This document shows positions 1,402 to 64,000 of a DNA stretch of 64,000 nucleotides, in pieces; the stretch's first letter is position 1, and every line of letters begins with the position of its first letter. Below the pieces are notes generated by a model that was not told the origin of the DNA, ran no database searches, and saw nothing but the letters and a program-made list of their open reading frames with translations. The stretch comes from Zygnema cylindricum (lineage: Eukaryota > Streptophyta > Zygnematophyceae > Zygnematales > Zygnemataceae). The position numbers and the translations under genes are program-made. The stretch covers positions 36,873-100,872 of the forward strand of contig JBBHKE010000853.1 in assembly GCA_037447655.1 (NCBI GenBank), read 5' to 3'.

Positions 1402-9694
<8,293 letters not shown>

Positions 9695-12688: not shown

Positions 12689-12856
12689 CGCGCACAAAAA
12701 TTGTAAAAAACTTCAGACACGTGCGACAGTATCTGTCTATTCGCTCACCTTATTGGACTTTATTTCAAATCACGCGCACAAAAATTGTAAAAAACTTCAG
12801 ACACGTGCGACAGTATCTGTCTATTCGCTCACCTTATTGGACTTTATTTCAAATCA
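12689..12856. repeat. Exact 84-bp tandem duplication
   Basis: CGCGCACAAAAATTGTAAAA starts at 12689 and again at 12773. The two 84-bp copies look identical and abut directly. Because 84 is a multiple of three, an ORF at 12457-12879 stays open through both, but its product is unrecognised and the reading frame is probably incidental. Confidence 0.85.
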
Positions 12857-13282
12857 CCTTGCGAGGTGATTTGATGTAAAGTTTGAACATGTGTAGAACG
12901 GATGCGAAAGTGGGTCGAAATGCGCTAAACGACAAATTAGACCGCGCTAGACGACAAAGTAATGTACGTATTAAGGTTCAGGGTAATGCATTCTTGTACG
13001 GTGGTAATTTCTATTTTTTGGTACGGTTGCGGATTTTCTCGTTTTTTTCTAAGTTATGGAGGAAAACTACAAAAAATAACTGTAACTTTAGCACATGCGA
13101 AAATACCCTTATAGTCACACGGCGTTGTACCGTGACTTTGAAATTGCGTACGTTGACGTACGCTCTCGACCATACTATCTTTATTAAAAATCATTGCCCT
13201 TTGGTCGCCGTTTTGAAAACCTTTAAATAGGGCGGTGTCTATGCGTCCTCGCGACCCAAAACGTCACGTCCCTTACGGCCGC

Positions 13283-19714: not shown

Positions 19715-20630
19715 TGTCAAGCTCATGTGCTTTTTAGGCATACCTTTATATAACCAAGGATTTCCAAGACCTATTTACCTTGTATGGTCTTCAGAGGACG
19801 GAGGAGTGAGTGCACTAAGCCGGACGAGATCCTTGTATTTCCTAAACTGAGCGGAACGCACTTTATTTGGCGCTTAACGGAGGCCGGACGACAAAGTTCT
19901 ATCGTCTCAAAGATTGCAATTCCGTTATAGGGAACCATTTGCCACCAGCCCCCGTGGGGGGTACATTGTGGATTGCCACGTAACTTTCCGGATTTGCATT
20001 TAGATTATACTGTTAGCCGTCAATAGGAATTTAGTTCAGTCTTAGTTGACTTTTTGTCCATTAATTACGTTATGTCAAAGTCAGGCAAGTTAGTGTCCTT
20101 TTCAGGACTTTGTCTTATAATAGTGGACCAAATAATTACTTCTCGCCGCGGAACTAGCCGCAGTCCGGGGCAGAACTTTTTGCCTCGAGTGTAGTACGGA
20201 TTATTTTGTCTTGTGTTAGTTGAATTACACTTGCTTGCCGCTCATTGGTTAATACCGTAGCTTTGACTTTTGGACTTGCAATTTGACAAACTTTGATGTA
20301 TAAGGCACTTGGGGTCGAAGGAGACAGGTTGCTTTTCAATACTGTCTTCGTGAAAACCCTCAGAAATTCCAACAAACCTTCTTTTGGAGAATCTTTGTGT
20401 TGTTTTGACTTTATTGCCATCTTGGTTTTCGATCTAGCTTTTGTGGAAATCACAGTCCGGGCGGGTAGTTGGCACTATCTTCCTTTTGGGTGATTTTGGA
20501 CTTTTTGCTGTTTGGAACCGAGAAGAGTCTGGTCGGTTCCTTTTGGGTGATTTTGGACTTTTTGCTGTTTGGAACCGAGAAGAGTCTGGTCGGTTCCGAG
20601 CTGCGAACACCAAAGGTTGTAGGAGTACCA
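19715..20630 (+). repeat. Ty3/gypsy family-B LTR
   Basis: Begins TGTCAAGCTCATGTGC and ends GGAGTACCA (TG...CA). A second copy lies on the minus strand at 56342-57202, which defines the borders. It is followed by a leader and a gag start, so it is a 5' LTR. It holds a 57-bp tandem duplication (20482-20597) absent from the other copy. Confidence 0.7.
20482..20597 (+). repeat. 57-bp tandem duplication inside the family-B LTR
   Basis: CCTTTTGGGTGATTTTGGAC starts at 20482 and again at 20539. The copies are identical by eye. The family-B LTR at 56342-57202 has only one copy, so the duplication arose in this copy or its recent parent. Confidence 0.85.
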
Positions 20631-28364: not shown

Positions 28365-28427
<63 letters not shown>

Positions 28428-37299: not shown

Positions 37300-38317
37300 T
37301 GCAATTCTATATCCTCTATTGGACTACAGAATACAGGAAGCCTCTAGATAGTATTTAACTAACCCACTTTAAGCCACAACCACTGCTGCCCAAGAAAGAA
37401 AACTGACAATTTGACTGCACCCCTATGCAGCGTAGACTACCCTGATTCCGTAGCAAAAAGAATCACTGAAAACGGCCTAGCGGCCGATTAGTTATGAGGA
37501 ACCAAAAATGCCAATTTGTACAAACTCTCAAAGGGGGAGGTGACTACCTACCAAAATTTTCTAAGTCGTGATTCCTTCTAATAACATCTATCTACAGAAG
37601 TACGGACCAATCAAATTATTGTACCGTACCAAAAAATACTATTGCCGGTGTACCTTTTGTACGGCCTATTTACGACAAGGCTATTAAGTGGACGCATGTC
37701 TGCTTTTTATTTGTCCGTACATTCCTCGGAATTCATATGACCGAATGTCATCTCTCCACGTGGCTCCAGGTCATGCCACGTCACAAAACGCGACGGTGAC
37801 CACTCTGGGATTTCGGCGATGACGTGCGCCGTCGGATTCGTAATGAGACGTAATCTTAACCGTTATAATTACTTGCGAGATATTTGTTTCGATGTCAACC
37901 AAATGCGAGGTATTCATTCTGAAATGATGTCGTACTAAAACTGTATCTATGCACGCCGTATCTAGTTTTAGTTAAATGGATTTCTTACTTCCTAAATGTA
38001 TATATATCTATCATACTCTATAACACTTAGCATTGGTCCTAGTCTAGTAGGATAAAGCTGACCGCTATCGGCCAACTTGACGAACCGCAGGTTTCGGGTT
38101 CAAATCCTGGGTCCGTCAAGACTATTTTTAGTAACTTCTAAAAAATAACTGCCTGTTGAACTAAGGCAGCCATGGATCAACCACATTTTCTATCTTTCAG
38201 TGACTACAACAAGTATGGGGGCTAGAGAAAGGAGGTGGAGGCAGGCTGTCTTTCCTTTTTCTTTTTCCTAACATATTTAAACCTAGAAAACACTATAGAA
38301 ATCTATGAATTTCAACA
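37300..38317 (-). repeat. Copia-2 3' LTR (family E)
   Basis: On the minus strand it starts TGTTGAAATTCATAG and ends AGAATTGCA. About 1,018 bp, and very similar to the 5' LTR. A polypurine tract (AAAATAAGGGGAG) lies just 5' of it at about 38318-38331. Confidence 0.92.
38033..38119 (+). other. tRNA-like stretch with A and B boxes, antisense to the LTR
   Basis: TAGTCTAGTAGG (38040-38051) fits the Pol III A box and GGTTCAAATCC (38097-38107) the B box, 57 bases apart start to start. A T-arm-like stem flanks the B box. The acceptor ends do not pair as in a real tRNA. The same layout recurs in the 5' LTR (47351-47362, 47408-47418) and, antisense, in family-C LTRs and at 62230-62320. Read as a tRNA-derived relic or internal Pol III promoter, not as a tRNA gene. 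Confidence 0.45.
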
Positions 38318-45430: not shown

Positions 45431-46629
45431 CTTAGCTTAGTGAAGAGTTATTTATCACGATACATATGCATGGATGCACCTGAGTCGATGATCCATCCTT
45501 CCTGTGGAGCTTCCCGAATTGCTCCAAGGGCACACTTCTGCCTCCGAGTGATCTCCTTCTCCTCCAGACTCTCGTCAAGAAGAAGCTCCCCATCCTCTTC
45601 AGAGGACTCATCCTTGGTTTCTCCTGACACTTTTGTAACCACAAGTGCCTTTTTCTTCCCTCCGCAAGAACCCCCTCCACGGTTCTCTTGGAGCCTCAGC
45701 TCTGATAGCTTGACACAATATGCGATGAAGTGTCCCGACTTTTTGCAATAATGACAAAGACCCTTTGGGGGCCTCTGTCCCCCAGAATGATCTCTCTCCC
45801 CTCTATAAGGTTTCTTCGCGTCCTTCCCCTATCGGTCCCCTCTTGCTGCTAGAGCTTGAATGCTCTTTCCTCCTCTCCTAATCTCCATTGTGTTTTCCTG
45901 CACAAGTATCATTGTGACTACTGTGTTCCATTTCTATGAACTATCAGGCATTCCCTGTACTCGGTACACTATGTTTTCGAACTCATCTGGTAATTTCATG
46001 ATAAGGGTGTTAACTTTCATTTTCATTGTACCTGTCCACCCGGCACTTTCCATTTCCATATACAAACAAGAAAGATCATTACAGTAATCTAACATCTTTC
46101 CTCCTATGTAAGTGTAACTCAATAGCTTTTGCTCAGCCAACTGGAGCTCCTAAATAGTTCTTGCTCTATAAATCTCCACCAAACTCTCCCACAACTCCTC
46201 GGCCTTGTAAATGTGAAGATGAGGAGTGGCCAAACCTTGAGTGAGGTGCCTTAGAATGAAGTTCTTGGCAGCCATGTTTACATCCTCCCACATTTAAGTA
46301 TCGTTCTCCACGGTCTTCACGATTGTCGCTCCCGATATTGTGCCAATAGGAGTGAGGGATGTCTCCTTCATTTTCCCCTTTTCGGACACACTGCTGTCCC
46401 GATCATCTGCCTCCTCCGCTGAGGTAGCCTTTGTTGCACAAAACCTTACTCCCCCAAATCCTGGTGGAGTTCCCGAAGGTGGACGTTTCACTTGTCCACT
46501 GACAATACCCCAGTATCGTTTCTCACACAAAGCTCTTATCTTCATGGCTTCCCAATAGATGAACTCAGATCCATTGAAGGTGGGCACCCTAGAGGGTGGG
46601 CCCATAACCTGCAATTCTGTGTCCTCCAT
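45431..46629 (-). pseudogene. Copia-2 gag and protease
   Basis: Starts at ATG 46629 inside the 5' LTR (MEDTELQVMGPPSRVP) and reads through the primer-binding site. Gag core as in Copia-1 (WGIVSGQVKRPP; LPDEFENIVYRVQGM). A zinc knuckle CHYCKKSGHFIAYC lies near 45720-45765. The protease motif WIIDSGASMHM is at about 45460-45500, with the normal DSGA. Several stops are present (near 46294, 46150, 45930, 45830). Confidence 0.85.
46595..46609 (-). other. Copia-2 primer-binding site
   Basis: On the minus strand GGTTATGGGCCCACC, an exact complement of 15 bases of the initiator tRNA-Met anticodon arm, immediately after the LTR end AATTGCA. Confidence 0.85.
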
Positions 46630-47629
46630 TGGACTACAGAATACAGGAAGCCTATAGATACTATTTAACTAACCCACTTTAAGCCACGATCACTGCTGCC
46701 CAAGAAGGCAAAATGACAATTTGACTGCACCCCTATGCAGCGTGGACTGCCCTGAGTCCGTAGCAAAAAGAATCACTGAAAACGGCCTACCGGCCGATTA
46801 GTTATGAGGCACCAAAAATGCCAATTTGTACAAACTCTCAAAGGGGGAGGTGACTACCTACCAAAATTTTCTAAGTCCTAATTCCTTCTAATAACATCTA
46901 TCTACAGAAGTACGGACCAATCAAATTACTGTACCGTACCAAAAAGTACTACTGGCGGTGTACCTTTTGTACGGCCTATTTACGACAAGGCTATTAAGTG
47001 GACGCATGTCTCCTTTTTATTTGTCCGTACATTCCTCGGAATTCCTATGACCGAAATGTCATCTCTCCACGTGGCTCCAGGTCATGCCACGTCACAAAAC
47101 GCCAAGGTGACCACTCTAGGATTTCGGCGATGACGTGCGCCGTCGGATTCGTAATGAGACGTAATCTTAACCGTTATAATTACTTGTGAGATATTTGTTT
47201 CGATGTCAACCAAATGCAAGGTATTCATTCTGAAATGATGTCGTACTAAAACTGTATCTATGCACGCCGTATCTAGTTTTAGTTAAATGGATTTCTTACT
47301 TCCTAAATGTATATATATCTATCATACTCTATAGCACTTAGCATTAGTCCTAGTCTAGTAGGATAAAGGTGACCGCTATCGGCCAACTTGACGAACTGCA
47401 GGTTCCAGGTTCAAATCCTGGGTCCGTCAAGACTATTTTTAGTAACTTTCTAAAAAATAATTGCTTGTTGAACTAAGGCAGCCATGGATCAATCACCTTC
47501 TCTATCCTTCAGTGACTACAACAAGTATGGGGGCTAGAGAAAGGAGGTGGAGGTAGGTTGTCTGTCCTTTTTCTTTTTCCTAACATATTTAAACCTAGAA
47601 AATACTATAGAAATCTATGAATTTCAACA
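46610..47629 (-). repeat. Copia-2 5' LTR (family E)
   Basis: 1,020 bp, TG...CA on the minus strand. Flanked on the right by CAGTA. Contains the tRNA-like stretch (47343-47430) on the + strand. Confidence 0.92.
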
Positions 47630-48240: not shown

Positions 48241-48770
48241 AGGACTTTTATAACCCCTTCAGATACCATCAGTGCCCTGGGAAGCGATTTCAATGGACTT
48301 TATCGTTGCACTTCCAACGCCACCGCAACGATATGACTCTATATTTGTTGTCGTGGATTACCTTACAAAAATGGCCCATTTCCTACCTACGACAACCACA
48401 GCTCCAGCTCGAGACATGGCAAATATATTCTTTCGAGAGATTTTCCGGTATCATGGGCTTCCAAAAAAAATCATAAGTGATCGTGATATAAAATTTGTCA
48501 GTCTTTTTTCGAGGAATCTGTTCCAGTTATGTAAAATGCAGTTTTCCATGTCCACAGCGTACCACCCTCAGACAGACGCTCAGACGGAAAGAGTGAACAG
48601 AACGTTGGAGGAGGCTTTAAGGGCTTATGTATCAATACACAAAACACACAAGGTGAACCATTTGACAGCAATTGAGGTAGATACAACAGTGCTGTGCACT
48701 CATCGACTAATGCTACGCCTTTCTCTCTCAATGGGCGACAACCTACCTTTCCCCATAATTTATTAGTCAC
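48241..48770 (+). pseudogene. Gypsy-1 integrase core
   Basis: ORF 48272-48766: MDFIVALPTPPQRYDSIFVVVD (first Asp), IISDRDIKFVS (second Asp) and AYHPQTDAQTERVNRTLEE (Glu): the DDE triad of an rve domain. A frame shift near 48690 moves the remaining part to another frame. Confidence 0.9.
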
Positions 48771-49918
48771 AGAATGCCCTACACTGGCCGCTATGGACTT
48801 TGCGCGGACGTTGCAAGTGAATCTGGTTAAGGCAGCGAAGGCCCTCCAACAAGCAAAAGATCACCAAAAGTTGCAAGCCGACGCTCATCGGAAAGACATC
48901 AACTTTCGTGTGGCAGACAAGGTTTGCCTAAACGTGGCAAAAATGTCATTACCAAGTGCGCTTTCAAGGAAATTAGCGCTACGGTTCACGCGACCATTCA
49001 CCATCCTTTCCAAAGTGAATGACGTGGCTTACAAACTTGATATTCCAAAAGAATGGCAAATTTCGAATGTGTTTCATGTGTCAATACTCAAACCATTTCG
49101 CAATCCTGACTCGGTTTTTCCTCATCGCCGCCGTTCTACCCCGCTACCGCCATTCGAGGGTACCGCGGATGAATACGAGGTAGAGGAAATTGTGCAGTCG
49201 TGTCGCCGCCAAAATACGGACTCCACGCAATATTTAGTGCGATGGAAAGGTAACAAAATGGAGGACGAATGTTGGGTAGACGAAAAAGATCTTCATTCCC
49301 CTGATTTGCTGCGCTGGTTTAAGCAGAGTGCGGACACTGAACATAATCGGAGCGGCAGTCTCACTGAGCGCAACAGAAGAACAAGTTGCAGTAACGCAAC
49401 AGTCGCAGTAATAATGGGAACACGACGAGGAAACGCAGCGGCGATGGTAACGGACCAAAGCACTATGGTTGCGCAACCACCGAAGCGCACTGTAATATTG
49501 ACACCATCAGAGAATCGCAGCGCCACCGCTGCGGTGACAGAAAAGCGCAACGGCGTAGTTATGAATCGCAACCTAGGTGAGGTCAAACTCTCGGTATCGT
49601 CGCGGCAGCGCAATTTACGAAACGTTGGACACTGCGATAACTTCGCACGCTGCGACGCCTGGAAGAGTCCAATCACGGAACCCTCAACCCTCTCAGCTAA
49701 AGCCGCCATTAATTCTCGCGATCAACCTAGTTTGAGCAGCTTGGAGAGCATCTCTCTCCGCACTGCCAGCTTACTCTCACTTTTCCAGTTGCCTGAACTA
49801 TCTCGTACAACCGCATCCATGGCGTCATCATCCTCTCCACCACCAAAAAAAAGAGACTCGTACGAGTGGGACATGAGGATACACCTCGCCAGGATAGATT
49901 GTTAGTCGCGGCGGAGGT
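48694..49918 (+). pseudogene. Gypsy-1 integrase C-terminus, chromodomain and tail
   Basis: 403 codons. NATPFSLNGRQPTFP ends the core; KLALRFTRPFTILSKVND and FHVSILKPF are the integrase C-terminal (GPY/F-like) module. Chromodomain about 49171-49330: YEVEEIVQSCRR, YLVRWKGNKMEDECWV, with the aromatic residues Y, W and W expected of a methyl-lysine cage. Downstream, about 190 codons rich in Arg/Ser/Thr/Ala run to TAG 49903 with no domain. This part may be 3' non-coding sequence that happens to be open. The chromodomain would guide integration to methylated histone H3. Confidence 0.85.
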
Positions 49919-50477: not shown

Positions 50478-52982
50478 TGGGGCGAGGAGAGACTCCGGAT
50501 AACGGATCTCGAGAGCAGAGTCAACAGGAGAGGCGTGTGCATGAGGAAAAGTCTTTGAAGTCTGAGGTGTTTGAGCCCATGGAGATTGTCTTTGAATCTC
50601 CGGCGAAGGAATCGGCTGGTGCTTCTTCTCCTCCCCCTCCTCCCAGCTTGACTCCCGAACATTACCCTTCCTTGGCGGAGGCCGCCAGGGCCTATGCTGA
50701 GGAAAGGAGGGAAGCTCAGGCTCAGGCCCAGGAAAGGAATCGAGTGGCTCGCAGAGCCCGGACAAAACGGCAGACGCAGAGGGAGTCCCATTTGGGCCCT
50801 CTTCTAAAGGTCGCGCTTTACACCAGATCCAAGATTCCCCGGGCCAAGATCCAGGTTGACCACGCGGTTTTGACGGATCCCCGTTAATTAGGTCATAAGG
50901 AACTCCTTGCCGTTCACGACCTCCATGAGCTGAAAGTGAAGAAGGAGTTGGTACAGAGAGTGGCTCGGACAGATCGAGTGAGATTGGTTAGACCCGTGGG
51001 AGGGGTGGTGGAGATTTTGAGCAGTTCTTTGGATAGCAGCTCTTCACAGTCAGTGGAGGACCTGTTATATAAAGCTCCCTATTCTCGCCCTCCCACATCT
51101 TCCAGTCAGGACCCCGCAGCCAACAGACCCTCCAAGGACGTACATCTTCACGGCCTGGTAGAGGAGAAGGGGGTATCGAGAGGGAAGCCCGAGATCCATT
51201 GAGGGGAAAGAGGTTTGACCACTGTGAGAGCAAGGGGAGATTTGCACCTCTTCCCAAGGAGGAGATGTCACCAACTCCTGTGTCAGCCTCAACCAAGAAA
51301 CATGCTCCTACAACAACTCGTGTCCGCCGTGCCGAAAGGCTTTGGCGACCCAAACCGACCGATGTAGAGGTTCCGGGTATGGGACCAGAAGATTTGTCCG
51401 CGGGATGGTGGCGGTCTAAACCTAATGATCCCGAAATTTTAGGGATGGAGATAGCGGATCTTACCAAAGTGGTCAAAAAAGCAAAGGAACTAGTGGAGGT
51501 TATAAAATCCCAGGGACAGCCTACACCGGGGGCTAGACCCGCCACGGTAGATTGGGAGGCCTTAGAGGCATAAAGGCAAAAGGCATGGGAACACGAATTC
51601 ACGCTTATTAGGGAAGCTCGGCGTAGGACAAGTGGGATTCTTAGCGGGAAGATTCCTCCTACCCCAAAGATAGGGCCGCATTCTGAAGCACCACCCGCGG
51701 GGACCTCTCCTCTCACCAACACTCAGCCCGACATTTCGTCCTCGGAGCCAAGCCAAGAGCATCCTCTTCCGTGGAAATGGGAGGGAAACATTGGACCTAA
51801 TGTGAAGGGTTTGGGTGCAAATTCCTCTTTTGGACTCGCTTTGGCTCTTCGCGGAGAGACTACCTTTGTCTTGGTGGAGGTGTCTACTGCCGTGGAGGCT
51901 TTGGTGGAGTTACTACCTGCCGAGAGAATTCACATTCCCTTGAGGGTGCCAACACCTCCTTCCACTTCTCCCAAGGGATCTTTGAAGCTCCCACCTTCTC
52001 CTCTTCCGCCTCATTCCTCTCACTCCCGGGACCCACCACAGAGCCTCGGGACTGTCCCGCCTCCTCTCCTTCGCCATCCGTTTCTCCTACAGCAGCTGTC
52101 CGTGGGTCGCCTGGTTCGCATGTGTTACCCTACTAATACGACGTACCTGCCTATTCACCTCCTCACCGACGCTCTCTTTCCTCTTGCTTCGGAACTCCAC
52201 CTCTCGAGACCTCAAGGAGGCGAACTAGGAGACAGACCCCCTTCCCCATAAGGGCTACGCAGTCTCCGTTCCCATCTCCTTCTCCGTCTTCGCCACCGGC
52301 CATCCCACAAAAGCCTTTGAACAAGCCTCGTCTCCACATTCCTTTAGTGGAGACCGTGCTTCGGGAGGCACAATATTCTTCTGGATATAGAGGAGTAGTG
52401 GGGAACATCCTTTCTCCAACCATATTTTCAGGCGCTAGTACTTCCTCTGTGGGAGGGGAATCCACACCTCTCAAGGCAACAACTTCTACCGCAGGAGGAC
52501 ACGGTCCAAGTCCCGAGGAATAGGATACGGGAGTCATCTCGCCATCTCAGTTTGTCAGCCCCACCAAGCCTTCCTCTTCCCATTTCACCAATACTGCAGA
52601 GGAAGAAAAAAAAATGGGGGATATTACAATCTTTACAGGAGATAGCTCAGGGATCACATTTCGAGTTGTTGTGGAAATCTTTCACACAATCCGAAATCAA
52701 TAAGTACCGGGGAGGAGCCATTCCATATGACTTCGAAACAACCCTCTTTCCCATGATGGCCAACTACCTCTCTGGAGGGGCGTTGGCGGATTACAAAGAG
52801 CGTCTACCTCTTTTGATGGCTCATAGCATCCTAGAATCTCGGATCCGACCCTTAATGCTGCAGTGTTACTAGCGGAGGCTGACTTGGCTGCGGCGGCTAC
52901 AACCCTTGTGACGGCTACCTTAACCCAGGACATGAAACTAGAAGCACAGGGAAGCGCTTATGTTAACCAGCTGCAAGCAATC
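50478..52982 (+). pseudogene. Family-B gag, N-terminal and central parts
   Basis: The ATG at 50478 opens MGRGETPDNGSREQ, PMEIVFESPAKES, a YPSLAEAARAYAEERREA helix and basic RRARTKRQ. A TAA at 50885 and later stops and frameshifts split the rest: a VQRVARTDRVRLV segment, a Pro/Ser-rich stretch with SSSLDSSSSQS, and a doubled motif RPKPTDVEVPGMGPEDL / RSKPNDPEILGMEIADL (about 51345-51460). Pro/Ser-rich sequence continues to about 52540. A DITIFTGDSSGITF segment near 52620 is Gag-like. The size is unusual for gypsy Gag, so extra domains may be present. No known enzyme motif was seen. Confidence 0.6.
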
Positions 52983-54073
52983 TGAAACTCTGAGACCTCC
53001 ATAAGTCCTCAGAGTGGACAGCTTCCAAGAAGCCTCTAGGATAACCCTGACCCCTTTGTGTTTCAGCAAAAACAACTACCACCCTGGCAGACAATAACTC
53101 TAACCAACTTCACCCCTGTGAAGGCAAGACTCCCTGAGTCGATAGCAAAAAGAATCTCTGAATTTGCTCCCCTGAGCAGTAAGTTATGGAGGGTCAAAGT
53201 TGACCTTTTGTATAGAAGCTCTCTGGGAGAGAGGGTCCTATCTCCTAATTTTTCTAAGTCCTAACTCTCTCACAGACTCTATCTACTGATGTATGGAGCC
53301 AATCAGAATGCAGTTCGGTACACAAAAGTACAGCTGTCGGTGTACTTTCTGTACAAACACTGTACAACATGGCCTAAATGTCGACACGTGGTATGTCCGG
53401 ATTCGCTCTTGTAATCTTCGGAGATGCCGCGATCCAATGTAATTCCGCCATGTGTCATTCGATCTGGCGATATCCACAAACTGCCAAAATCCTCTTCCGC
53501 GATCTCGGCGTTAATTCCGGCCGTCCGATTAAATTCATATTTAATCGTAGCCGTAATAAATACATGTGCGGTATTCTTTTCTATAAAGAAACAAATGCGC
53601 GGTATTGGTTTCTTAAACGTACCCAAATCCATACTTTTACAATTATGGATCTATGTCTCCCGTAAACAGTTATAGTTAAATGAATTTTCCTACTTGATAA
53701 TATTTAATTAAATATCAAACCCTATATTACGTAACACTCGATAAAGACTTAACGGCTAAGGCTACCGGCTACCGGTTCTCTGCCGGCAAGTAGGTACAAG
53801 GATCAAATCCTGAAGCTGGTTCTTTCCTTTTAGTAAATAAACCCCTAACAAATATATAATCCTCGTAAACTTCTGGATAGCCTAGGTAGCCATGGCTGTG
53901 GCTCCCTCTCCAATTTCTCAGTGACTGCGACAAGTTTGAGAGTTAGAGAGAGAAGTTAGAGGTAGACTGTCTTGGTTGCGGCGGCTGCAACCCATGTGAG
54001 TGCTACCTTTACCGAGGACATGAAACTACAAGCACATGGAAGTGCCTATGTTAACCAGCTGGAAGCAATCTAG
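52885..54073 (+). repeat. About 100-bp duplication flanking the antisense LTR
   Basis: TTGGCTGCGGCGGCTACAAC...CAGCTGCAAGCAATC (about 52886-52982) and TTGGTTGCGGCGGCTGCAAC...CAGCTGGAAGCAATC (about 53975-54071) lie on either side of the LTR fragment and are about 85% identical. Far longer than the 5-bp duplication made by an LTR integrase. Confidence 0.8.
52983..53985 (-). repeat. Copia LTR (family C), antisense, 5' truncated
   Basis: On the minus strand it ends GGAGGTCTCAGAGTTTCA with family-C blocks throughout (CTCTCTCCCAGAGAGCTTCT; AGGGGAGCAAATTCAGAGAT). The first 65 or so bases of the LTR are missing: after GGTAGACTG it runs into gag sequence at about 53974-53986. Confidence 0.8.
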
Positions 54074-56298
54074 GCAGCCCAGGCAGCAACTTGCATGGTT
54101 GCCAATCCCTACCCCTGTACCACCCTGCTTAACATCTGGAGACTCATTTACACCGAGAGGAAAAGTCTGCATTTAAAGAATCACAGAATTTCGATATGTG
54201 AAGAACAAGAATCTGCAGACCCTCTTTAATTGACTCTCCAGCCTTTGTCAGAAGACAAAGCTGTCCACTATTGATCTTCAGGCGATGGCCACCAAATATT
54301 TCATCGCCGTCCGTAATTCATTCGGGCCAACATGGCAGACCGCTCTTGATAATTTGATTGCCGGACAGGCAATTTAGGACATTAATCTCTCAGCCAAGGA
54401 AATTTCGTTGGTGGTGATGAAGTTGTACGACCACTTCGTCCACAGCAAGGGAAGGGAGAAAGCCGTGACCAGCAAGTCCCGCGCGAATTTTGCAGGATTA
54501 GCCGGGAGACCTCCTTGAGTGTGGAGGAGAAGTCTGAACTTCAAGCTTTTCGAAAGCACAAAGTGAAGCAAGTGGAAGACAACGGGTCAGAGCCGGCAAT
54601 GAGAGCAGATGAAAGAGTTTTTCTTTACAATTGCCTAAATTGTCAACAAACAGGCCATGGGTGGAAGCACTGCACACGAAAACTTAAACCGCAGCTGGCC
54701 TTGAAGCTAAAGGAATGGGAGAAAGAACGGGCAGAAAGGACCCATAAGCAGCAAGAAAGGTTCAAAGGGGAAGGAGGGGGTGAGAAGACGCCAATAACCA
54801 AGGAAACTTACCGTCCACCCCTGAGGAGAAACCGCCAAAATGTCGCAATCTTAGTTGCGACAAATAAAACTTCCAAAGTTTTGATGACGCCCAAATCTCT
54901 AATGAAATCCGTAGCAAATACACCTCCGAGGGAACAAAATGCAAGGCTTGCAGATTCATTGGGCATAAGGAGACGCGATGTTTCCGAAAGAATTAAGTTT
55001 CCAAAGAAATGATGCAGTTCGCCCTATTTACTGGAGAAGGAGAAACTGCCTTTAACCCTCTCCCACTTCAACTCCTCTATCATTGGGGACGAAGAGTTTT
55101 GCTCACCCCAGAGGAACCGGAGCGTGCACCGATGGCTACAACAAGACTTACGCCGGAAATCATTATCCAGCAGCAGTGTTAGAAACTAGTCGCGATGGCT
55201 GCAGAATTGGCTGCTGTTTGTTTAGGATCTCCTTCCCGACCTGCTCCTCTCACGGCAGTTCAACAACTCCAGAGGTAAAAATAGGAATTGTTACAGAAGC
55301 TCGCGGAGCTTGATGTTCAAAGCACTGCAAGTGCAAATGATGATGACTTATTGGGCTGGGATTTGGAACCCCCAAACACCCACCATGCAAAAACCTTCCT
55401 GACAAGGGCTTGGAATGTTGGGGTGGGAGACAACCGTCGCCAACTCTGCCATTCCACCTCAATGTAAAGACAAGACAGGCAGAAAATGGGCTAGAAGGAC
55501 CACAACCGGAAAGCTACAGGTCCTTTGTCATTTACTCCCAAGGTAGTAATGCTTAACTATGACGTCGACCTCGGAATCAAACCAAATCATCCTCCATCTC
55601 TTTGGCCAAACCCTAAATTGCCTCCCGATTTCGATAACTACCGAAACAAGAAACAACAGAGGGAAAAGGAGTCGCTGGAGAGAGAGAAAAATGACAATCA
55701 ACACTGGTTTGAAAGATACATGGCAGAACGCTCGGAAAATGACACTCCCCAAATTCAGCTGATTGCAGATTTTGGCTCCGAGAATGATGAGAAAGAAGGA
55801 CAGGATCAAGAACCACAAGAACCGGATTCACCCTCATTCCGACAAGAGGCTACCCTTCTTTCCTCCAAACCGGTTGTAATGCTAGTCCGGCACCTCATGC
55901 CATACTCCCTTACCCACGTAAAGACAATGGCATCCTTTCACAACCTGGCCTAAGAGATCCTCATTCAGGCATTGGGAGAAGAGATCCACTCTGGGAAGAA
56001 CCGTGTCAACACGGCCACTCCCCCAACCGCAATCTTTCTTTCTCCCAATCCTAAAACACATATAGTGGATAGGGACTACAAAGCCTTGTCGGTGGCTCTT
56101 ATACTGAACCTGACAGGAAACTTCAAGCTCAACAGGTACGCATGATACCAAGACGTTGTGGTCGACACCAGAGCCCTCCCCAACCTCATTACCACTTGCG
56201 CCTTACGGGAAATGCGTGAAGAACTCCGACCAAAAATTTGCCCTAGTAACATTTGCTTGAGCACGGTAAGCATCGGTAGCCAACCTGTCTATGGTAAC
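53974..56298 (+). pseudogene. Family-B gag C-terminus and protease start
   Basis: Gag continues: MATKYFIAVRNSFGPTW (about 54284), a KEISLVVMKLYDHF stretch, then ORF 54515-55012 with the zinc knuckle CLNCQQTGHGWKHC (C-x2-C-x4-H-x4-C, about 54632-54675). A linker with ORF 55525-55953 (PPSLWPNPKLPPDFDNYR; acidic DFGSENDEKEG) leads to the protease-like VVDTRALPNLITTCALREM near 56155; the usual D-T/S-G is D-T-R here. At least seven in-frame stops occur, all single C-to-T steps from CAA, CAG or CGA or their equivalents. The copy ends at 56298. Confidence 0.75.
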
Positions 56299-56341
56299 TG
56301 TCGAGCGTGCCTGATTAACGTGAGGGAAGGGCCCACAGCCC
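56299..56341 (-). repeat. 43-bp duplicate of the family-S LTR end
   Basis: TGTCGAGCGTGCCTGATTAA... repeats 57205-57247 with two mismatches. The two copies flank the family-B LTR at 56342-57202. Confidence 0.75.
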
Positions 56342-57202
56342 AGGTACTTTAGCAACCTTCGTTGTCCGCAGCTCAAAACCGACCAGCCTCTTCTCGGTTC
56401 CCAACAGCAAAATGTCCAAAATCACCCAAAAAAGAAGATAGTGCCAACTACCCGCCCGGACTGTGATTTCCACAAAAGACAGATCCAAAACCAAGATGGC
56501 AATAGAGTCGAAACAACACAAAGATTCTCCAAAAGAAGGTTTGTTGGAATTTCTGAGGGTTTTCACAGGAGACAGTACTGAAAAGCAACCTGTCTCCTTC
56601 GACCCCAAGTGCCTTATACATCAAAGTTTGTCATTTTGCAAGTCCGAAAGTCAAAGCTACGCTATTAACCAATGAGCGGCAAGCAAGTGTAATGGAACTG
56701 ACACAAGGAAAATTAATCCGTACTACACTTGGGGCAAAAAGTTCTGTTCCAGAGTGCGGCTAGATCCGCGGCCGGAAGTAATTATTTAGTCCCCTATTAT
56801 AAGACAAAATCTTGAAAATGACACTAACTTGTCAAACTTTGACCTAACGTAATTAAGGGACCAAAAGTCAGCTGAGCCGGAGCTCAATTCCTACTGACGG
56901 CCAACAGCATAATCTAGATGCAAATCTGGAAAGTTACGTGGCAATCCACAATGTACCCCCCACGGAGGATGTTGGAAACTGGTTTTAGGTAACAGAATTG
57001 CAATCTTTGAAACGGTAGAACTTGGTCATTCCGCCTCCGTTAGACGCGAAATAAAGTGCGTTCCGCTCAATTTAGGTAATACAAGGATCACGTCCGACTT
57101 GGTGCACTCACTCCTCCGTACTCTGAAGACCGAACAGAGTAAAAAGGGCCCGGAAATCCTTGATGATATAAAGGTATGCCTAAAAAGCACATGAGCTTGA
57201 CA
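56342..57202 (-). repeat. Family-B LTR, antisense
   Basis: On the minus strand it starts TGTCAAGCTCATGTGC (57202) and ends near AAGTACCT (56342), matching 19715-20630 but with a single copy of the 57-bp unit. No attached gag on its strand, so it is a solo LTR. It carries a segment (about 56570-56600 on the + strand) complementary in sense to the family-B leader word AGTACTGAAAAGC. Confidence 0.8.
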
Positions 57203-57204
57203 GC

Positions 57205-57486
57205 TGTCGAGCGTGCCTAATTAACGTGAGGGAGGGGCCCACAGCCCGGAGTCTTCGGCATTGGAGTCCTGCAAATAAACCCCGAATGCGAATGATTCCC
57301 AAAAAGAATGATCATGCCCACTGCTGCCCACATCCCTCCCATAGATATGCATGCAAAATAGGAGAGAGGCATGAGCAGGGAATAGGGAGGAGGGCAAGGG
57401 GCAGGCGAAAGTTATCCCCTCCTCTTTCCTTCCCCCCTTGGCCGGGGGAAGGGATTAGGGTCTCGGCAATCAGGATGATATCCCCA
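57205..57486 (-). repeat. 3' LTR (family S) of the methyltransferase element
   Basis: On the minus strand it starts TGGGGATATCATCCTGATTG directly after a polypurine tract and ends GGCACGCTCGACA. 282 bp, short for a gypsy LTR. A related copy lies at 50098-50340. Confidence 0.7.
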
Positions 57487-57531: not shown

Positions 57532-58362
57532 TTACCCACTCCATTCGCAGTTCCCACAGAACCATATGCTGGAGGGTATATGGTGTGGCTCCCTAGAGGA
57601 GGGGAGACAGGCTGAATGCCAACACTGACCATACTGATTGCAGACCAATAGGTGGTGCAGCTGGGAAGACTGATTGTAGGCTGAGGAACAGGAGGGAGTA
57701 TCGGCACAGTAAGTGAAGTGGAAAGTTAGTTCGTCTTCCAATCCCCGAAGATGGGAGGGGGCCACATTGATCTGATTCTCTTTAATTCGTCGACCATCTT
57801 TTCCCTCCAATGTAAGAACCCCTTTGTTGGACACCTCGACCACTTTGAATATTACCCTCCCGACACAATTATCCAGCGTGTTATTCTTCTGTTGCATTAG
57901 ATATACAAAGTCTCCCGGCAGAAATCGTCGCTGCCGGGGCACATAATTCCCACTCCAGCGCTGAGAATACCACAATTAATCTCGGTGTTGAGCCGCTTGC
58001 AAATTGCCCATGGCGAGAGGCATCTCTCGGTGAAATACCTTGGCCCTGTCGGCGATCAGTTTTTCGACTGTCCCCTTGTCATCCATCTCCGGTAGGACCA
58101 GCGATTGGGCCGATGCAGCTCCGGGCAAGATGGGATGTCGTCGAAATAGAATGAAATAAAGGCTATAGGAGTGGAGAGAAGCCTGCCTGCTAAATCTGTA
58201 ACCCATAGCAATCTAAGGTACTTTTCTGTCCCACTCCCCCAAATCTTCTTCCACGACATATTTTCGTAGTGACAGCTTCACTGTCTGTACGCACCTTTCG
58301 GCTAAACCGTCGGCTTGAGGGTGGTCACGGTTGGTTAGCCGATGGTCGACCAAGCATTTTTC
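57532..58362 (-). pseudogene. Integrase C-terminal part and PHD-like finger
   Basis: Continues the integrase after a TAG at 58363. RDHPQADGLAERCVQTVKL-type sequence (catalytic Glu region) is read around 58265-58330, with further stops before ORF 57975-57532. The latter holds PGDFVYLMQQKNNTLDN and GRVIFKVVEVSNKGVLTL, an SH3-like integrase C-terminal fold, then VAPSHLRGLEDE. The last 60 codons (57535-57710) form a Cys/His cluster: C-x5-C-x15-C-x2-Y-x4-H-x2-C...WFCGNC, closing with TAA. This matches the C4-H-C3 PHD layout except that the fourth Cys is Tyr. Chromoviruses place a chromodomain here instead. Confidence 0.8.
57547..57708 (-). other. PHD-finger-like zinc module
   Basis: LVCNQYGQCWHSACLP and IWFCGNCEW carry the signature elements of PHD fingers: a hydrophobic pair before the third Cys, W-H-x2-C, and W-F-C-x2-C at the end. 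The distance from the second to the third Cys (15 residues) is within the family range. Position four reads Tyr (TAT) where Cys (TGT) would be expected, one transition away. PHD fingers read the histone H3 tail, usually its Lys4 methylation state. Confidence 0.6.
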
Positions 58363-58983
58363 CTAGAGGTTGGAAAATTCTTCGACAAATTCGGAGCCTT
58401 GGTCGGTCAAAACTTCCGCCGGCGCTCCGAATTGGGCCAGCACCTGTTGCAAAAAGGCATCGACAATTGCCTTGGGCTCCTTCCGGGGCAAAACCACCAA
58501 CTCGATCCACTTGGAAAAATGTTCTATCATAACCAACACAAAGTGGTTCCCCCGCCAGCTGGTCGGAAAGGGTCCCAAAAGATCCAACGACCATCGATAA
58601 AACATCCCTCGGATAGGCAGTGAGTGAAGCTCAATCCCGCCCTTTTTGTCAAAAGGTGCCTTAACGCGATCGCATGAGGAGCAAGTTTGCACAATTCGGT
58701 TGACTTGGGTCTGCAACCCATGCCACCAATTAGAGTCCGTAACCAGGGAAGTGGTCCGCTTTTGCGCGAAGTGTCCACATTGCCAATGGAGATTAGAAAT
58801 CAGAGTTTCTCGGTCAGAGGGGGGAGGAACCACTTTCCTCGTACAGTCTGACCATTTCCGAAGGAGAACGCCTCTGTCCCAATCATATGCAGCCATCCGG
58901 GTCTGTACCTGGGATAAGGGAACTCCAGTCAAGTGGGGAATAGGGGACCCCTGCTGGATAGATTGGAGAGCATCGGGGTCGTT
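58363..58983 (-). pseudogene. Integrase zinc domain and core of the methyltransferase element
   Basis: Same frame as the RNase H ORF, separated from it by a TGA (58984-58986). NLHWQCGHFAQKRT and CSSCDRVKAPF form the HHCC zinc region; WSLDLLGPFPTSWRGNHFVLVMI gives the first Asp; VLTDQGSEFVEEF the second. The core is cut by TAG at 58363 and continues in the following segment. Confidence 0.88.
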
Positions 58984-59844
58984 TCAGATGTCCTTCTGTT
59001 CGACCCCTATTGGCGCCAGCCCCTTCACATCGGCAGAGAAAGTTGACAGTTCCCACCCAGATTGGGGAAGCCAGATGAAAATGGAGGACGCTCGAATGAT
59101 TCCCAAGCTGATCTCAGGGTCCTCATCATGGCGAGCTCCGGTAGAATCCATGGTGGAGGGATCAGGATTCCGGCTAAGTCCGTCGGCATTCCCATGGATC
59201 TCCCCTGCCCTATTAACAATGTCGAAATCATATTCCTGCAGGATAAGAACCCATCTGGCGAGTTTGCCGGTCAAATTACTATTTTCCATGATCCATTTCA
59301 AGGGTTGGTGATCCGTAATCAGTGTGAAATGGACTCCGTACAAATAAGGCCGGAAATGCTGGATGGTCCTAACAGCTGCGAGTAACTCTCCGTGGTAACT
59401 ATTATAATTCCCCTCAGCCTTGTTGTTACTTCGGTTGGCATAGGCCACCACATATTCAGCTCCGGCATCATCGACTTGAGCCAGAACTGCTCCCAATCCA
59501 AACCTGCTCCAACCAGTATAAAGGAGGAAAGGTCTTTGGTGATCAGGCATCCAGAGCACGGGGTGCTGCTTCAGAGCATCCTTCAATAACTGGAAGGAGA
59601 TCTGTTGTTCCTTGGCCGACTGCCACTCTTGGTCCTTCCGCAGTAGCTGGTTAAGGGGCTGGGCGTGACTACTGAACTCTGGGATAAACCGCCGATAGTA
59701 ATTGGCCAAACCCAGAAAAGTGCGAAGGGCCGAGATGTCCTGTGGTGGGGGAAGAGCGTCAAGGGTTGCCACCTTGACCATGTGGGGACCCACAGTCCCG
59801 GGTGTCACCTCATGTCCTAAGTAAATGATTTTTCTGCACCCCAA
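58984..59844 (-). pseudogene. RT connection and RNase H of the methyltransferase element
   Basis: IIYLGHEVTPGTVGPH and ALRTFLGLANYYRRFIPEF are the RT thumb/connection. RNase H motifs follow: the first catalytic position lies in LLYTGWSRFGLGAVL, where TDASxxG is expected, so the first catalytic Asp is replaced; SYHGELLAAVRTI (Glu); LITDHQPLKW (Asp); IHGNADGLSR. Frame differs by a shift from the preceding RT segment at about 59850. Confidence 0.88.
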
Positions 59845-59858
59845 AAAATGTCTTTGCC

Positions 59859-60512
59859 CTAGTGATATTTCAAGCCCGCTGCTCGGAGTGCCCAGAGAAC
59901 GATTTGGATATGCTCTAGGTGTTCATCAAAAGTCTTTGAGAATATAATAACATCATCAATATAGCACCGGGCACACTCGATTCCTCGAAGTGCTTCGTCC
60001 ATGGCCCGTTGGAATTTTGCCGGTGCATTCTTAAGCCCGAAGGGCATGTAAATCCATTCATAAAGTTTGGAACCCGCCCAAAATGCAGTTCTCTCCCGGT
60101 GCTTTAGTTCCATTGCAATCTGGTGGAAACCATTCTTCATGTCCAGAGTGGAATATATAGTGGCGCCTGCAAGAGAGTCGAATATCTCTTCCGGAGTCGG
60201 CATCGGATACCGGTCAGAGATGGTGGCCGTGTTCAGCATGCGATAGTCTCCACACATCCGGAAATCTACAGTTTTCCCGAGCGAGTCCTTTTTGGGAGGG
60301 AGGACTGTCGGGGAAGCGAACCCATGAAGTCCGGTACTTTCCTGAACCAATCCAGCTTCCACCAAGGTCTGGACTTTAGCCGTGATGAATTCCTTTTCCT
60401 TGAAACTGAGAGGATACTGCTTCTGCCAAACAGTAGCCGTCTCGTCGATCAAATCAATTCGGAAGGGTGTTCCTTTGTAGATACCGACGTCTGTTTCTGA
60501 CCATGAGAACAC
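59859..60512 (-). pseudogene. Reverse transcriptase of the methyltransferase element
   Basis: 217 codons directly in frame with the methyltransferase ORF, separated by one TAG (60513-60515). FSWSETDVGIYKGTPFRID is the usual pre-RT segment. RT blocks: FASPTVLPPKK, RMCGDYRMLN, LDMKNGFHQIAM, YMPFGLKNAPAKFQRAMD, and the catalytic CYIDDVIIFS (YIDD at residues 184-187). Ends with TAG after GLKYH and a frameshift in a T/G run. Confidence 0.92.
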
Positions 60513-61874
60513 CTATTTGTTTTCGGCCAACAGCTCCGAGAGTCGCGCCTTCTGCTGAGGGTCCAACTGCTCCCCCAGGGTCCAATCCATTTTCCTCGGC
60601 TCAACGGCAGCCCAAGCTTCCGGCGGTCTACCCCAGAGGTTAATGTCGAATTCCAACCCTACCGGTGGATCTGCCCCTATCTCTCTGGCTAGGACACTGC
60701 TGCTGACAACTTCTGCTAAGCTGTCACCATCGGAGCCGCTGCCCCCCCCCACTAGGAAAACATGCGGCGGTAAAATGTGAAGTCTGGTTTTTCTTCTCTT
60801 TTCTCTCCCCCCCTCAAGCTGCAAAGTTGCCTGCACCGCTAATAACTGAGGAGCTTGATGGTAAATAGCTCGTGATTCCGGGGACGTGAGACTGGAAAAG
60901 GCGATTGCATGCTTGAGTACCCATGTGACCGAATTCAAATCCATACTTTGCCCCATAAGGCTGCACCGCTGAAGGTCTGATATACCTGGTGCTGTCGTTG
61001 TTCTTTTCTGAAATCCTATTGCTTCTTCCCGTTCGGCTATCGTCGGTGTTGTCCAGAGTGCTGCTTTGCTATCGAAAATCATTCCTGCCGCTCCATTTCG
61101 ATAAGCATGACTGTGAGGGAAAGAGACCAATGTCGGGAGGGCTTTCCTTGGGAATCCCGGTCTGTTGCACCGGAAGAAAGGTGGGCGATCGGATCGAGTC
61201 ACAGGTGTGGCTATTCTACCTTCCCCAAGTATATGCTGAACGGAATTTTTCTTGTCGGGGATTTCCTTCTCCAACAATTGTCGGAGGACTGGAATCGTGA
61301 TCATGTTTGTCCAATATGCCCTGACTCGGTGTGCCCGCGATCCCAGCTGTGCAGGGTTGAAAACTAATGGAGCCCCTAAGATCCGGGTTACGTGATTCCA
61401 GGTGTCTGCAACATGTTTTCGTTTATCATCTCCCGGTTGGACATTTTCCAGAACGTACCCCATCGGCGTTTCCTGGAGTTGTTGAAGCCACGAGATTAAC
61501 TCAATCAACCGAAAAAAGGTTCCACTTCTGCGGTCTTGGTGCCCTTTTCCTTCTCCTGCTAGGGAGTATCCATAACAAGGCCAGCGTGCCAATACCAAAT
61601 CCACTCTTCCCAAACAGGCTATGTGGGTCGCCATGATGTTCTCTAAATTGTGGGGAAGACTACGGTAAGCTTTGGAGAAGGCGGATACTAGAAGCTGTTG
61701 AGGATATTGGTGATGAAGTTTGTGGAGGCGATGTTCGCTGACAGCCCTAGCCTCGAGATATACTTCCACGACTGTGAATGACTCCACCGGATTCCCTGTT
61801 TTCAAGACCGCTTCCACATCAAAACTAATTCCTGAAAATAGAGATAAAATACGCAGTCCAGAATCGGGAACTGC
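60513..61874 (-). CDS. DNMT3/DRM-like cytosine-C5 DNA methyltransferase domain
   Basis: Transfers methyl from S-adenosylmethionine to cytosine C5. The open frame has 453 codons after a TAG at 61875-61877. Motif I GLRILSLFSGIS (residues 6-17) binds the cofactor; motif II VVEVYLEARAVSEH; motif IV RWPCYGYS with the catalytic Cys near residue 100; motif VI LENV (about 142-145); motif VIII SRAHRVRAYW (about 179-188); motifs IX-X around EREEAIGF and RCSLMGQSM (about 281-310). The order I-IV-VI-VIII-IX-X and the RxHRxRxxW form resemble DNMT3/DRM rather than DNMT1/CMT. A linker of about 120 residues with LDPQQKARLSELLAENK leads straight into the RT frame, so the domain is part of the retrotransposon polyprotein and not a host gene. 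All core catalytic residues appear intact. Confidence 0.88.
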   Translation of the reverse strand, partial: AVPDSGLRILSLFSGISFDVEAVLKTGNPVESFTVVEVYLEARAVSEHRLHKLHHQYPQQLLVSAFSKAYRSLPHNLENIMATHIACLGRVDLVLARWPCYGYSLAGEGKGHQDRRSGTFFRLIELISWLQQLQETPMGYVLENVQPGDDKRKHVADTWNHVTRILGAPLVFNPAQLGSRAHRVRAYWTNMITIPVLRQLLEKEIPDKKNSVQHILGEGRIATPVTRSDRPPFFRCNRPGFPRKALPTLVSFPHSHAYRNGAAGMIFDSKAALWTTPTIAEREEAIGFQKRTTTAPGISDLQRCSLMGQSMDLNSVTWVLKHAIAFSSLTSPESRAIYHQAPQLLAVQATLQLEGGREKRRKTRLHILPPHVFLVGGGSGSDGDSLAEVVSSSVLAREIGADPPVGLEFDINLWGRPPEAWAAVEPRKMDWTLGEQLDPQQKARLSELLAENK

Positions 61875-62031: not shown

Positions 62032-63051
62032 TGTTGAAATTCATAGATTTCTATAGTATTTTCTAGGTTTAAATATGTTAGGAAAAAGAAAAAAGGACAG
62101 ACAGCCTGCCTCCACCTCCTTTCTCTAGCCCCCATACTTGTTGTAGTCTCTGAAGGATAGAGAAGGTGGTTGATCCATGGCTGCCTTAGTTCAACATGCA
62201 GTTATTTCTAGAAGGTTACTAAAAATAGTCTTGACGGACCCGGGATTTGAACCCGGAGCCTGCGGTTCATCAAGTTGGTCGATAGCGGTCAGCTTTATCC
62301 TACTAGACTAGGACCAATGCTAAGTGCTATGGAGTATGATAGATATATATACATTTAGGAAGTAAGAAATTCATTTAACTAAAACTAGATACGGCGTGCA
62401 TAGATACAGTTTTAATATGACATCATTTCAGAATGAATACCTCGCATTTGTTTGACAGCGAAACAAATATCTCGCAAGTAATTATAACGGTTAAGATTAC
62501 GTCTCATTACGAATCTGACGACGCACGTCATCGCCAAAATCCTGGAGTGGTCACCTTGGGGTTTTGTGACGTGGCATGACCTGGAGACACGTGGAGAGAT
62601 GACATTCTGTCATAGGAATTCCGAGGAATGTACGAACAAATAAAAAGCAGACACGCGTCCACTAAATAGCCTTGTCGTACATAGGCCGTACAAAAGGTAC
62701 TTCGGCAGTAGTACTTTTTGGTACGGTACAGTAATTTGATTGGTCCAAACTTCAGTAGATAGAAGTTATTAGAAGGAATCAGGACTTAGAAAATTTTGGT
62801 AAGTAGTCACCTCTCCCTTTGAGAGTTTGTACAAATTGGCATTTTTGGTGCCTCATAACTTATCGGCTGGTTGGCCGTTTTCAGTGATTTTTTTTGCTAC
62901 GGACTCAAGGGAGTCCAGGCTGCACAGGGGTTTAGTCAAATTGTTAGTTTGTCTTCTTTGGCAGCAGTGGTCGTGGCTTAAAGAGGGTTAGTTAAATACT
63001 ATCTAGAGGCTTCCTGTATTCTGTAGTCCAATGGAGGACACAGAATTTGCA
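62032..63051 (+). repeat. Copia-5 5' LTR (family E)
   Basis: Starts TGTTGAAATTCATAG and ends AGAATTTGCA. 1,020 bp. Contains the antisense tRNA-like stretch at about 62232-62320. Confidence 0.92.
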
Positions 63052-64000
63052 GGTTATGGGCCCACCCTCTAGGGTGCCCACCTTCAATGGATCTGGGTTC
63101 ATCTATTGGGAAGCCATGATGATGGGAGCTTTGTGTGAAAAAGGATACTGGGGTATAGTCAGTGGACAAGTGAAACGTCCACCTTCGGGAACTCCACCAG
63201 GATTTGGGGGAGTAAGGTTTTCTGCAACAACGGCTGCCTGAACGGAGGAGGCAAATGATGGGGACAGAAGTGTGTCCGAAAAGGAGAAAGGGAAGGAGAC
63301 ACCCCTCACTCCTATCGTCACAATATCGGGAGTGATGACCGTGAAGATCGTGGAGAACAATACTCAAATGTGGGAGGATGTAAACATGGCTGCAAAGAAC
63401 TTCATTTTGAGGCACCTCACTCAAGGTTTGGCCACTCCTCATCTTCACATTTACAAGGCAGAGGAGTTGTGGGAGAGTTTGGTGGAGATTTATAGAGCTG
63501 GAACTATTCAGGAGCTCCAGTTGGCTGAGCAAAAGCTATTGAGTTACACTTACAAAGGAGGAAAGATGTTAGATTACTGTAATGATCTTTCTTGTTTGTA
63601 TATGGAAATGGAAAGTGCCGGGTGGACAGGTACAATGAAAATGAAAGTTAACACCCTTATCATGAAATTACCAGATGAGTTCGAAAACATAGTGTACCGA
63701 GTACAGGGAATGCCTGATAGTTCATGGAAATGGAACACAGTAGTCAGGATGATACTTGTGCAGGAAAACACAATGGAGATTAGGAGAGGAGGAAAGAGCA
63801 TTCAAGCTCTAGCAGCAGGAGGGGACCGATGGGGGAAGGACCCGAAGAAACCTTATAGAGGGGAAAGAGATCATTCTGGGGGACAGAGGCCCCCAAAGGG
63901 TCTTTGTCATTATTGCAAAAAGCCGGGACACTTTATTGCAGATTGTGTCAAGCTATCAGAGCTGAGGCTCCAAGAGAACCGTGGAGGAGGTTCTTCCGGA
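63031..64000 (+). pseudogene. Copia-5 gag, partial
   Basis: Compared with Copia-2, one extra T (GAATTTGCA for GAATTGCA) puts the LTR-borne ATG (63031) out of frame with gag; the gag frame itself resumes as QVMGPPSRVPTFNGSG. A TGA at about 63239 and later frame differences break it further. LPDEFENIVYRVQGM and a zinc knuckle CHYCKKPGHFIADC (about 63906-63947) are recognisable. The window ends in the linker before the protease. Confidence 0.88.
63052..63066 (+). other. Copia-5 primer-binding site
   Basis: GGTTATGGGCCCACC, exact complement of 15 bases of the initiator tRNA-Met anticodon arm, directly after the LTR. Confidence 0.85.

Follow-up and report, generated by a model that had tools for sequence, protein, structure and literature searches.

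The closest described system is KnitGypsy-Dnmt3 of Klebsormidium nitens, a Gypsy element that bears a methyltransferase (MT) and carries DIRS-like repeats (PMC5890265). The Klebsormidium MT gave no methylation in yeast, a result its authors regarded as inconclusive (PMC5890265). In dinoflagellates, SymbioDIRS-Dnmt3 elements contain a DNMT3-type MT inside Pol, in two domain orders (PMC5890265). Chromoviruses are Gypsy elements furnished with a chromodomain (PMC3605345). Readthrough candidates have been noted among rice gypsy elements, with RIRE2 cited, and TMV represents type I readthrough (PMC2754532), the signal for which is UAG CAR YYA (PMC2754532, PMC11166343).

Here we compare with these systems an element found in a 64,000-nt stretch of Zygnema cylindricum DNA, termed the window, and its relatives. 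Like KnitGypsy-Dnmt3 as described in the main text of PMC5890265, they have an unpermuted DNMT3-related MT in a Gypsy Pol, DIRS-like repeats and purifying selection. If the K. nitens protein P0130 (KFL_009030040), with the order MT-RT-RNase H-integrase, is taken to be KnitGypsy-Dnmt3, placement of the MT before the reverse transcriptase (RT) is also shared. The initial annotation had suggested that an MT between protease and RT may be a distinct arrangement; the same order in P0130, from a published host, removes that distinction. Unlike KnitGypsy-Dnmt3, a TAG precedes the MT here (in families A and C, defined below), a PHD finger ends Pol, and P0130 occupies a separate branch in both MT and RT trees. 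SymbioDIRS-Dnmt3 elements resemble the present ones in having a DNMT3-type MT in Pol, A-coding-B-A-B repeats and two domain orders, but employ a tyrosine recombinase (PMC5890265), whereas a DDE integrase and a 4-bp target duplication (element L009) are found here. As in chromoviruses, a chromatin-reading module lies at the integrase C-terminus, a PHD finger here and a chromodomain there (PMC3605345). The words 'PHD' and 'readthrough' are absent from the main text of PMC5890265, figures and supplements being outside this statement. In the literature searched, we found no account of a kept TAG, of PHD in place of the chromodomain or of the second Gypsy domain order described below.

The window copy and its surroundings

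On its minus strand, the window holds a Ty3/Gypsy Pol led by a DNMT3-like cytosine MT (Table 1). The initial annotation had described an MT frame that continues into a YIDD RT on the same strand, and this was confirmed: the frame at 60513-61874 is stop-free over 453 codons, the plus strand of the same span is full of stops, and MT and RT frames are separated by a single TAG at 60513-60515. Homology to the pol frame (reference: open P0004, from L013) extends beyond these bounds, however, starting at 62024, with the stop at 61872-61874 inside the homologous span. The PF00145 search proposed for the 453-codon frame returned a match above the cut-off (25.3 versus 22 bits; E 1.3e-5, residues 70-147), and the best solved relative of the frame was DNMT3A (E 1.7e-4). 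Cytosine-C5 MT motifs earlier read as a full set are present in the frame, but motif IV is altered (RWPCYGYS). In the metagenomic protein P0002 (685 aa), a single open frame covers both MT and RT, and P0002 shares 51% identity with the window across 667 alignment columns. Because P0002 aligns across the MT/RT TAG of the window, the adjacency of these domains is not a matter of chance.

The Pol domains of the window copy are present, but in pieces. Relative to open P0004, the first piece (residues 12-755) shows 71% identity and 5 stops, and the second (residues 739-1520), in a different frame, 82% identity and 4 stops. The closest sister of the window copy, L034 (92-93%), reads GWPSEGYS at motif IV. 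Given its in-frame stops, its frameshift, the PCY of motif IV and a Copia insertion that removed the 5' side, this copy is dead, and open frames survive in relatives. Motifs I, IV, VI and VIII are accordingly not all intact, and the proposal that the element can methylate DNA does not hold for this decayed copy. The Copia insertion also destroyed the protease-MT junction. The contig terminates at window position 64000, and the 5' end of the element lies beyond it.

Table 1. Features of the methyltransferase-bearing element and adjacent sequences in the window
Feature	Position	Strand	Evidence
Copia element, inserted ~11 codons into pol frame	62032..64000	+	94% to 45661-47629, 93% to 37303-38317
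DNMT3-like MT domain (~60870-61874) and linker to RT	60513..61874	-	stop-free frame
Motif IV region, reads WPCYGYS, catalytic Cys kept	61563..61583	-	Cys99 in 34/34 rows of alignment
Reverse transcriptase (YIDD)	59859..60512	-	RVT_1, E 6.6e-25
RNase H region	58984..59922	-	RT_RNaseH, E 1.3e-32; frameshift near 59.87 kb
Integrase zinc-binding and core (DDE, rve)	58363..58983	-	Pfam
PHD-like finger, integrase C-terminus	57547..57684	-	PF00628, 17.4 bits, below cut-off of 24
Body 3' end; repeat B1 at its end, only the 57-nt tail repeated as B2	57204..57439	-	
Palindromic B/A junction GACAGCTGTC	57199..57208	.	
Repeat A, internal copy	56355..57203	-	89% to copy at 19714-20538; junction compared with L022
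Repeat B2 and element 3' terminus, ends ..GACAG	56298..56354	-	86% to B1 tail
Gag-protease, opposite orientation	52059..56294	+	66-72% nt to L012 gag-protease, three colinear pieces

The plus-strand gag-protease at 52059-56294, in which a zinc knuckle (CLNCQQTGHGWKHC) was read by eye, belongs either to a second family A copy, into which the present element would have nested, or to an inverted half of the same element. Within this gag, 108-nt direct repeats (87%; 52876-52983 and 53964-54071), far exceeding the usual length of a target duplication, flank a Copia-LTR-like piece. Elsewhere in the window, 12689-12857 is a perfect 85-bp tandem duplication, 28370-28424 holds 54 perfectly self-complementary bp, perhaps a simple repeat, and 48254-49905 encodes the integrase of another Gypsy-like element, which carries a chromodomain (Chromo, 33.1 bits).

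Genome copies, the TAG junction and split repeats

The genome searched comprises 352,776,454 bp in 2689 contigs. Families were named by sequence: A, which includes the window copy; B, consisting of L009 and its kin; and C (L003, L020, L024 and L026). Candidate counts represent a loose first look only: 2054 for the window MT (P0001; 93 scored), 3063 for the window RT (150 scored) and 3115 for the family B RT (150 scored), with four places encoding a 100% identical RT protein. The PF00145 profile yielded 782 candidates, and all 123 scored exceeded the cut-off, host genes possibly included. By the scored places, together with 302 junction matches described below, the copy number of MT elements is in the hundreds.

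In L009, L012 and L013, a single Pol joins the MT to Gypsy RT, RNase H and DDE integrase. A single 2395-codon frame in L009 encodes two zinc knuckles (16.6 bits) and a protease (16.7 bits), both below Pfam cut-offs, followed by MT, RT, RNase H, integrase and PHD, all above them. The family A elements L012 and L013 are open from MT to PHD over 1525 and 1520 codons, respectively, with a PHD that falls below the cut-off, and have a protease-like frame upstream of the MT (L012 protease, 22.7 bits versus a cut-off of 24.3). Tyrosine recombinase (PF00589) had no match in the Pol frames scanned. These contain an rve integrase instead, and DIRS membership was therefore rejected.

The RT was sampled at every 8th of the 150 scored places (n=18). 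At least most of an MT lay within 1.6 kb directly upstream in 15/18 copies and was absent in three. For one of these three, on C291, the same strand shows a protease-MT junction match ~4.7 kb upstream, which would fit a later insertion. A stand-alone host MT gene beside an RT was rejected because the MT sits directly upstream in those 15 copies, and the pattern of RT copies lacking the MT while the MT stands alone did not occur. Thus, the order first read from the window, with the MT downstream of the protease and N-terminal to the RT, recurs in multiple copies across the genome.

Protease and MT share a reading frame in families A and C, with a TAG between the two. All 24 distinct junctions with homology have TAG, and CAATTC follows in 22 (the count draws on 25 distinct rows, less the window piece cut by Copia, and omits 8 loci with the junction outside the piece). 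A genome pattern built from the junction flanks, with the codon left open, gave 302 matches versus 2 in a reversed control. Among 100 matches listed and counted by eye, 89 have TAG, the others being TAA, TAC, TTG and TAT (2 each), AAG, ACC and TCG; at a nearby Pro codon, all four bases occur in third position among the listed matches. Codons on both sides of the TAG are constrained. In 16 distinct family A copies with ATT or ATC before the TAG (family C and L012 left out), pN/pS was 0.23 over the 19 codons after it and 0.37 over the 30 codons before it. A host code that reads TAG as an amino acid was rejected on the basis of the frames of 2395, 1525 and 1520 codons, which lack any TAG.

The junction context, UAG CAA UUC, agrees with 5/6 positions of the type I signal. 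As in TMV (PMC2754532), UAG is followed by CAA and two pyrimidines; the final base differs (C rather than A), and what lies behind the stop here is MT-RT-integrase following a protease. Retention of the TAG between protease and MT suggests that MT-RT-integrase of families A and C is probably made by stop-codon readthrough. Readthrough is not required in all families, since family B has no stop. The TAG could instead be an ordinary terminator, with MT-RT-integrase translated from an internal start, and the 19th codon past the TAG is indeed Met in 5 of the 16 distinct family A copies. We consider this distinctly unlikely, because that codon is Val or Ile in 11, the intervening codons after the TAG are constrained, and no other single codon takes the place of TAG more than twice among the 100 matches listed.

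The elements carry split direct repeats with the layout A-body-B-A-B. This DIRS-like arrangement is complete in L009 on contig C1344, where A1 (85514-86444) is followed by the body, B1 (94737-94978), A2 (94981-95911) and B2 (95912-96154); the window has the B-A-B end. A1 and A2 of L009 are 100% identical over 931 bp, and B1 and B2 99.6% identical. L009 has termini TGTC..GACA and the 4-bp duplication TTGG on both flanks, a single case because it is the sole element with both ends in hand. The junction GACAGCTGTC occurs near the 3' end in 9/19 loci from families A, B and C, with a 1-nt variant in L022; chance expectation for the exact word is 0.18 in those 190 kb. Internally, the junction has two bases more than the element ends show, as would be expected if cDNA ends were copied from the junction and trimmed by integrase. 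L012 and L013 have A at left and B at right, and a second A was sought in both and not found. Either recombination or a second product could account for elements without the extra A-B. In L014 (family B), positions 1-889 and 8245-9134 form an inverted match (97%), parts of which resemble L009 repeat A.

The methyltransferase and the PHD finger

C5-methyltransferases are recognized by a series of named motifs with usual forms, motif IV typically reading PCQ. A 7-row profile of the element MT matched DNMT3A among solved structures with an E of 2.6e-18; next beyond DNMT3 were HhaI (2.2e-7) and DRM2 (8.4e-6). Motif order is unpermuted, with I before IV, VI and VIII in one frame. A bacterial-type MT was rejected on the weaker match to HhaI, and DRM identity on the unpermuted order together with a DRM2 match weaker than that to DNMT3A. 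Motifs I, IV, VI and VIII are all present in L013 and likewise in L012, save for a change in motif I (LSLFCGI). Motif IV reads PCQG or ECQG in 35/38 alignment rows (excluding the window and its fragment L027, and counting four loci twice), with L034, L039 and L044 as exceptions. ECQ replaces PCQ in family B and in many relatives of the second domain order; examples come from the locus range L009-L019 and from P0007, P0015, P0028, P0048 and P0105, among others.

Median dN/dS (NG86) of the MT was 0.16 in family A (97/171 pairs usable), 0.18 in family B (11/55) and 0.74 in family C (6/6), and corresponding RT medians were 0.08 (152/171), 0.09 (10/55) and 0.51 (3/6). L001, L006, L008 and L027 were dropped from this set, and L005 and L028 stood outside the family groups. 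The MT is therefore under purifying selection in families A and B, and none is visible in family C at a median of 0.74 over 6 pairs. The ECQ of family B, in an MT under purifying selection, is an unusual C5-methyltransferase catalytic motif. Conceivably the domain is non-catalytic and serves to bind nucleic acid or to modify RNA or a tRNA primer; the Glu that stands in place of the motif IV Pro (WECQ) in family B, and in many relatives of the second order, would fit such a role, as would the inactivity of the Klebsormidium MT in yeast (PMC5890265). We find this very improbable, given a catalytic Cys that is invariant in 34/34 rows, window included, a motif VI Glu and a motif VIII Arg each kept in at least 90% of 34 rows, and dN/dS of 0.16-0.18 in families A and B.

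MT and RT distances are correlated among 32 own-genome copies (r 0.91), within family B (0.75) and, at only 0.28, within family A; over 31 rows including other organisms, r was 0.77. Not one of 2000 permutations reached any of the observed correlations. Own-copy MT and RT trees agree in placing B apart from A and C (trees and own-copy correlations omit L001, L002, L003, L005, L006, L008, L027 and L028). P0002 presents a small conflict in these trees, grouping with C for MT and falling outside A and C for RT; in the wider MT tree described below it pairs with P0096.

Self-methylation would be expected to give CpG depletion. As a scar of that kind, CpG content showed no special signal in MT elements compared with those lacking an MT: CpG o/e was 0.61-0.67 in family A (3 loci), 0.70 in the window pol, 0.87-0.95 in family B (7 loci) and 0.85 in family C (1 locus), versus 0.46 and 0.32 in Copia stretches and 0.99 and 1.06 in Gypsy stretches without MT. 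Self-methylation of copies may plausibly occur; CpG content lends it no support.

The PHD finger at the end of Pol is clear in family B (L009, 38.1 bits) and weak in family A, where PF00628 scores of L012 (21.5 bits) and L013 (17.5 bits) fall below the cut-off of 24. The family B PHD matched 93 solved sequences, PHF12 being best (5.9e-16), followed by BAZ2B, lid/KDM5, WSTF, KDM5B and PHF21A, with KMT2D, KAT6, DPF3, AIRE and UHRF1 ranked lower. Several of the PHD fingers matched, but not all, read the unmodified H3 tail, and the ADD domain of cellular DNMT3 reads the same tail. No chromodomain was matched in the L009, L012 and L013 Pol frames scanned, in which the PHD takes its place at the integrase C-terminus.

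Relatives elsewhere and a proposed role

The MT profile matched 92 proteins, among which P0069-P0095 are weak matches and in part bacterial; among proteins of polyprotein size, 43 match it. Named hosts are Klebsormidium nitens, Closterium NIES-53 and NIES-54, Marchantia polymorpha and Chromochloris zofingiensis, the last of which we take to be the source labelled jgi/Chrzof1. Prokaryote contigs gave 24 pattern matches with no relative among them, and viral contigs 11, including 2 weak relatives. The relatives in Klebsormidium, Closterium, Marchantia and a chlorophyte suggest a lineage older and wider than one published green host.

Two domain orders were found among these proteins. Order 1, with MT before RT, is represented by 14 proteins from elsewhere, including Klebsormidium P0130, Closterium P0048 and P0119, P0096, P0097 and P0103. 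Order 2, RT-MT-integrase, is likewise represented by 14 (P0105, P0110, P0114, P0117, P0121, P0122 and others). By profile, 13/14 order-2 proteins have a PHD finger, and P0124 ends inside the integrase. Among order-1 proteins elsewhere that reach the integrase, a PHD is present in 2/6, P0103 (profile) and P0137 (precomputed Pfam); neither method detected one in Klebsormidium P0130 or Closterium P0119. Pfam places RNase H between RT and MT in P0110, and among five proteins examined for RNase H by Pfam, none was found in P0098. The second Gypsy order thus appears to be RT-RNase H-MT-integrase-PHD and to form its own clade, with an SH-aLRT of 99 in both the MT tree (28/63 rows, some of unknown order) and the RT tree (14/31 rows). 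The wider MT tree included 11 hand-picked proteins from the RT-less P0002-P0068, and P0096-P0137 only where the MT stretch reached at least 240 residues; P0069-P0095 were left out, and rows in which the MT precedes integrase and no RT was matched were labelled order 2. Being unrooted, the trees fit a single capture followed by a move as well as two captures. In the RT tree, P0130 lies on the order-1 side and forms a branch of its own together with P0106; in the MT tree, it occupies a separate long branch.

Additional proteins showed other configurations. Metagenomic P0012 is an RNase H-methyltransferase-G-patch protein. Marchantia P0098, P0100, P0108 and P0112 end soon after the MT and contain no RT themselves; their RT may lie in another frame.

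Our best explanation of the anatomy observed, which we favour with modest confidence, is that an MT dosed as part of Pol methylates cDNA in the particle while the PHD finger steers integration. Most ribosomes would stop at the TAG to yield Gag-protease, and a minority would read through to produce Gag-protease-MT-RT-RNase H-integrase-PHD. The MT would then be made at Pol dosage and packed with RT in particles, a location that would seat it on nascent cDNA and not on the host genome. There it would methylate the nascent cDNA, and the PHD finger would direct integration to chromatin without H3K4 methylation. A new copy would land pre-methylated in a silent neighbourhood, where it would be tolerated and less harmful.

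An MT that precedes RT within one Pol would also suit a role limited to shielding unintegrated cDNA from a host nuclease or deaminase, with no function after integration, as has been proposed for DIRS elements (PMC5890265). MT-less Copia and Gypsy elements in the same window would then need some other means of evasion, and we regard this role as rather unlikely. Still less likely is that the MT acts in trans, scattered copies adding to or diluting host methylation with a gain through blurred host self/non-self marks or silenced competitors. Copy number is high, and a host-wide effect has been raised for dinoflagellates (PMC5890265), but the MT is coupled to Pol and lies behind a stop in families A and C, which should keep its dose low and RT-linked; selection per element, moreover, favours an effect in cis.

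With cDNA methylation and PHD-steered integration as the preferred reading, we tentatively propose that these elements may constitute a large, old Gypsy lineage of green algae and bryophytes that is self-methylating and chromatin-steered. Such a lineage would unite a DNA methylation writer and a histone reader in one Pol, ration the writer in part by UAG readthrough, combine split direct repeats with a DDE integrase and keep the MT in two Pol places. Transposons are the usual targets of DNA methylation. A constrained MT in hundreds of copies, together with a chromatin reader and an apparent leaky stop, makes the question of why transposons methylate DNA testable, with MT dose, its place in the particle and its target chromatin each open to separate assay.
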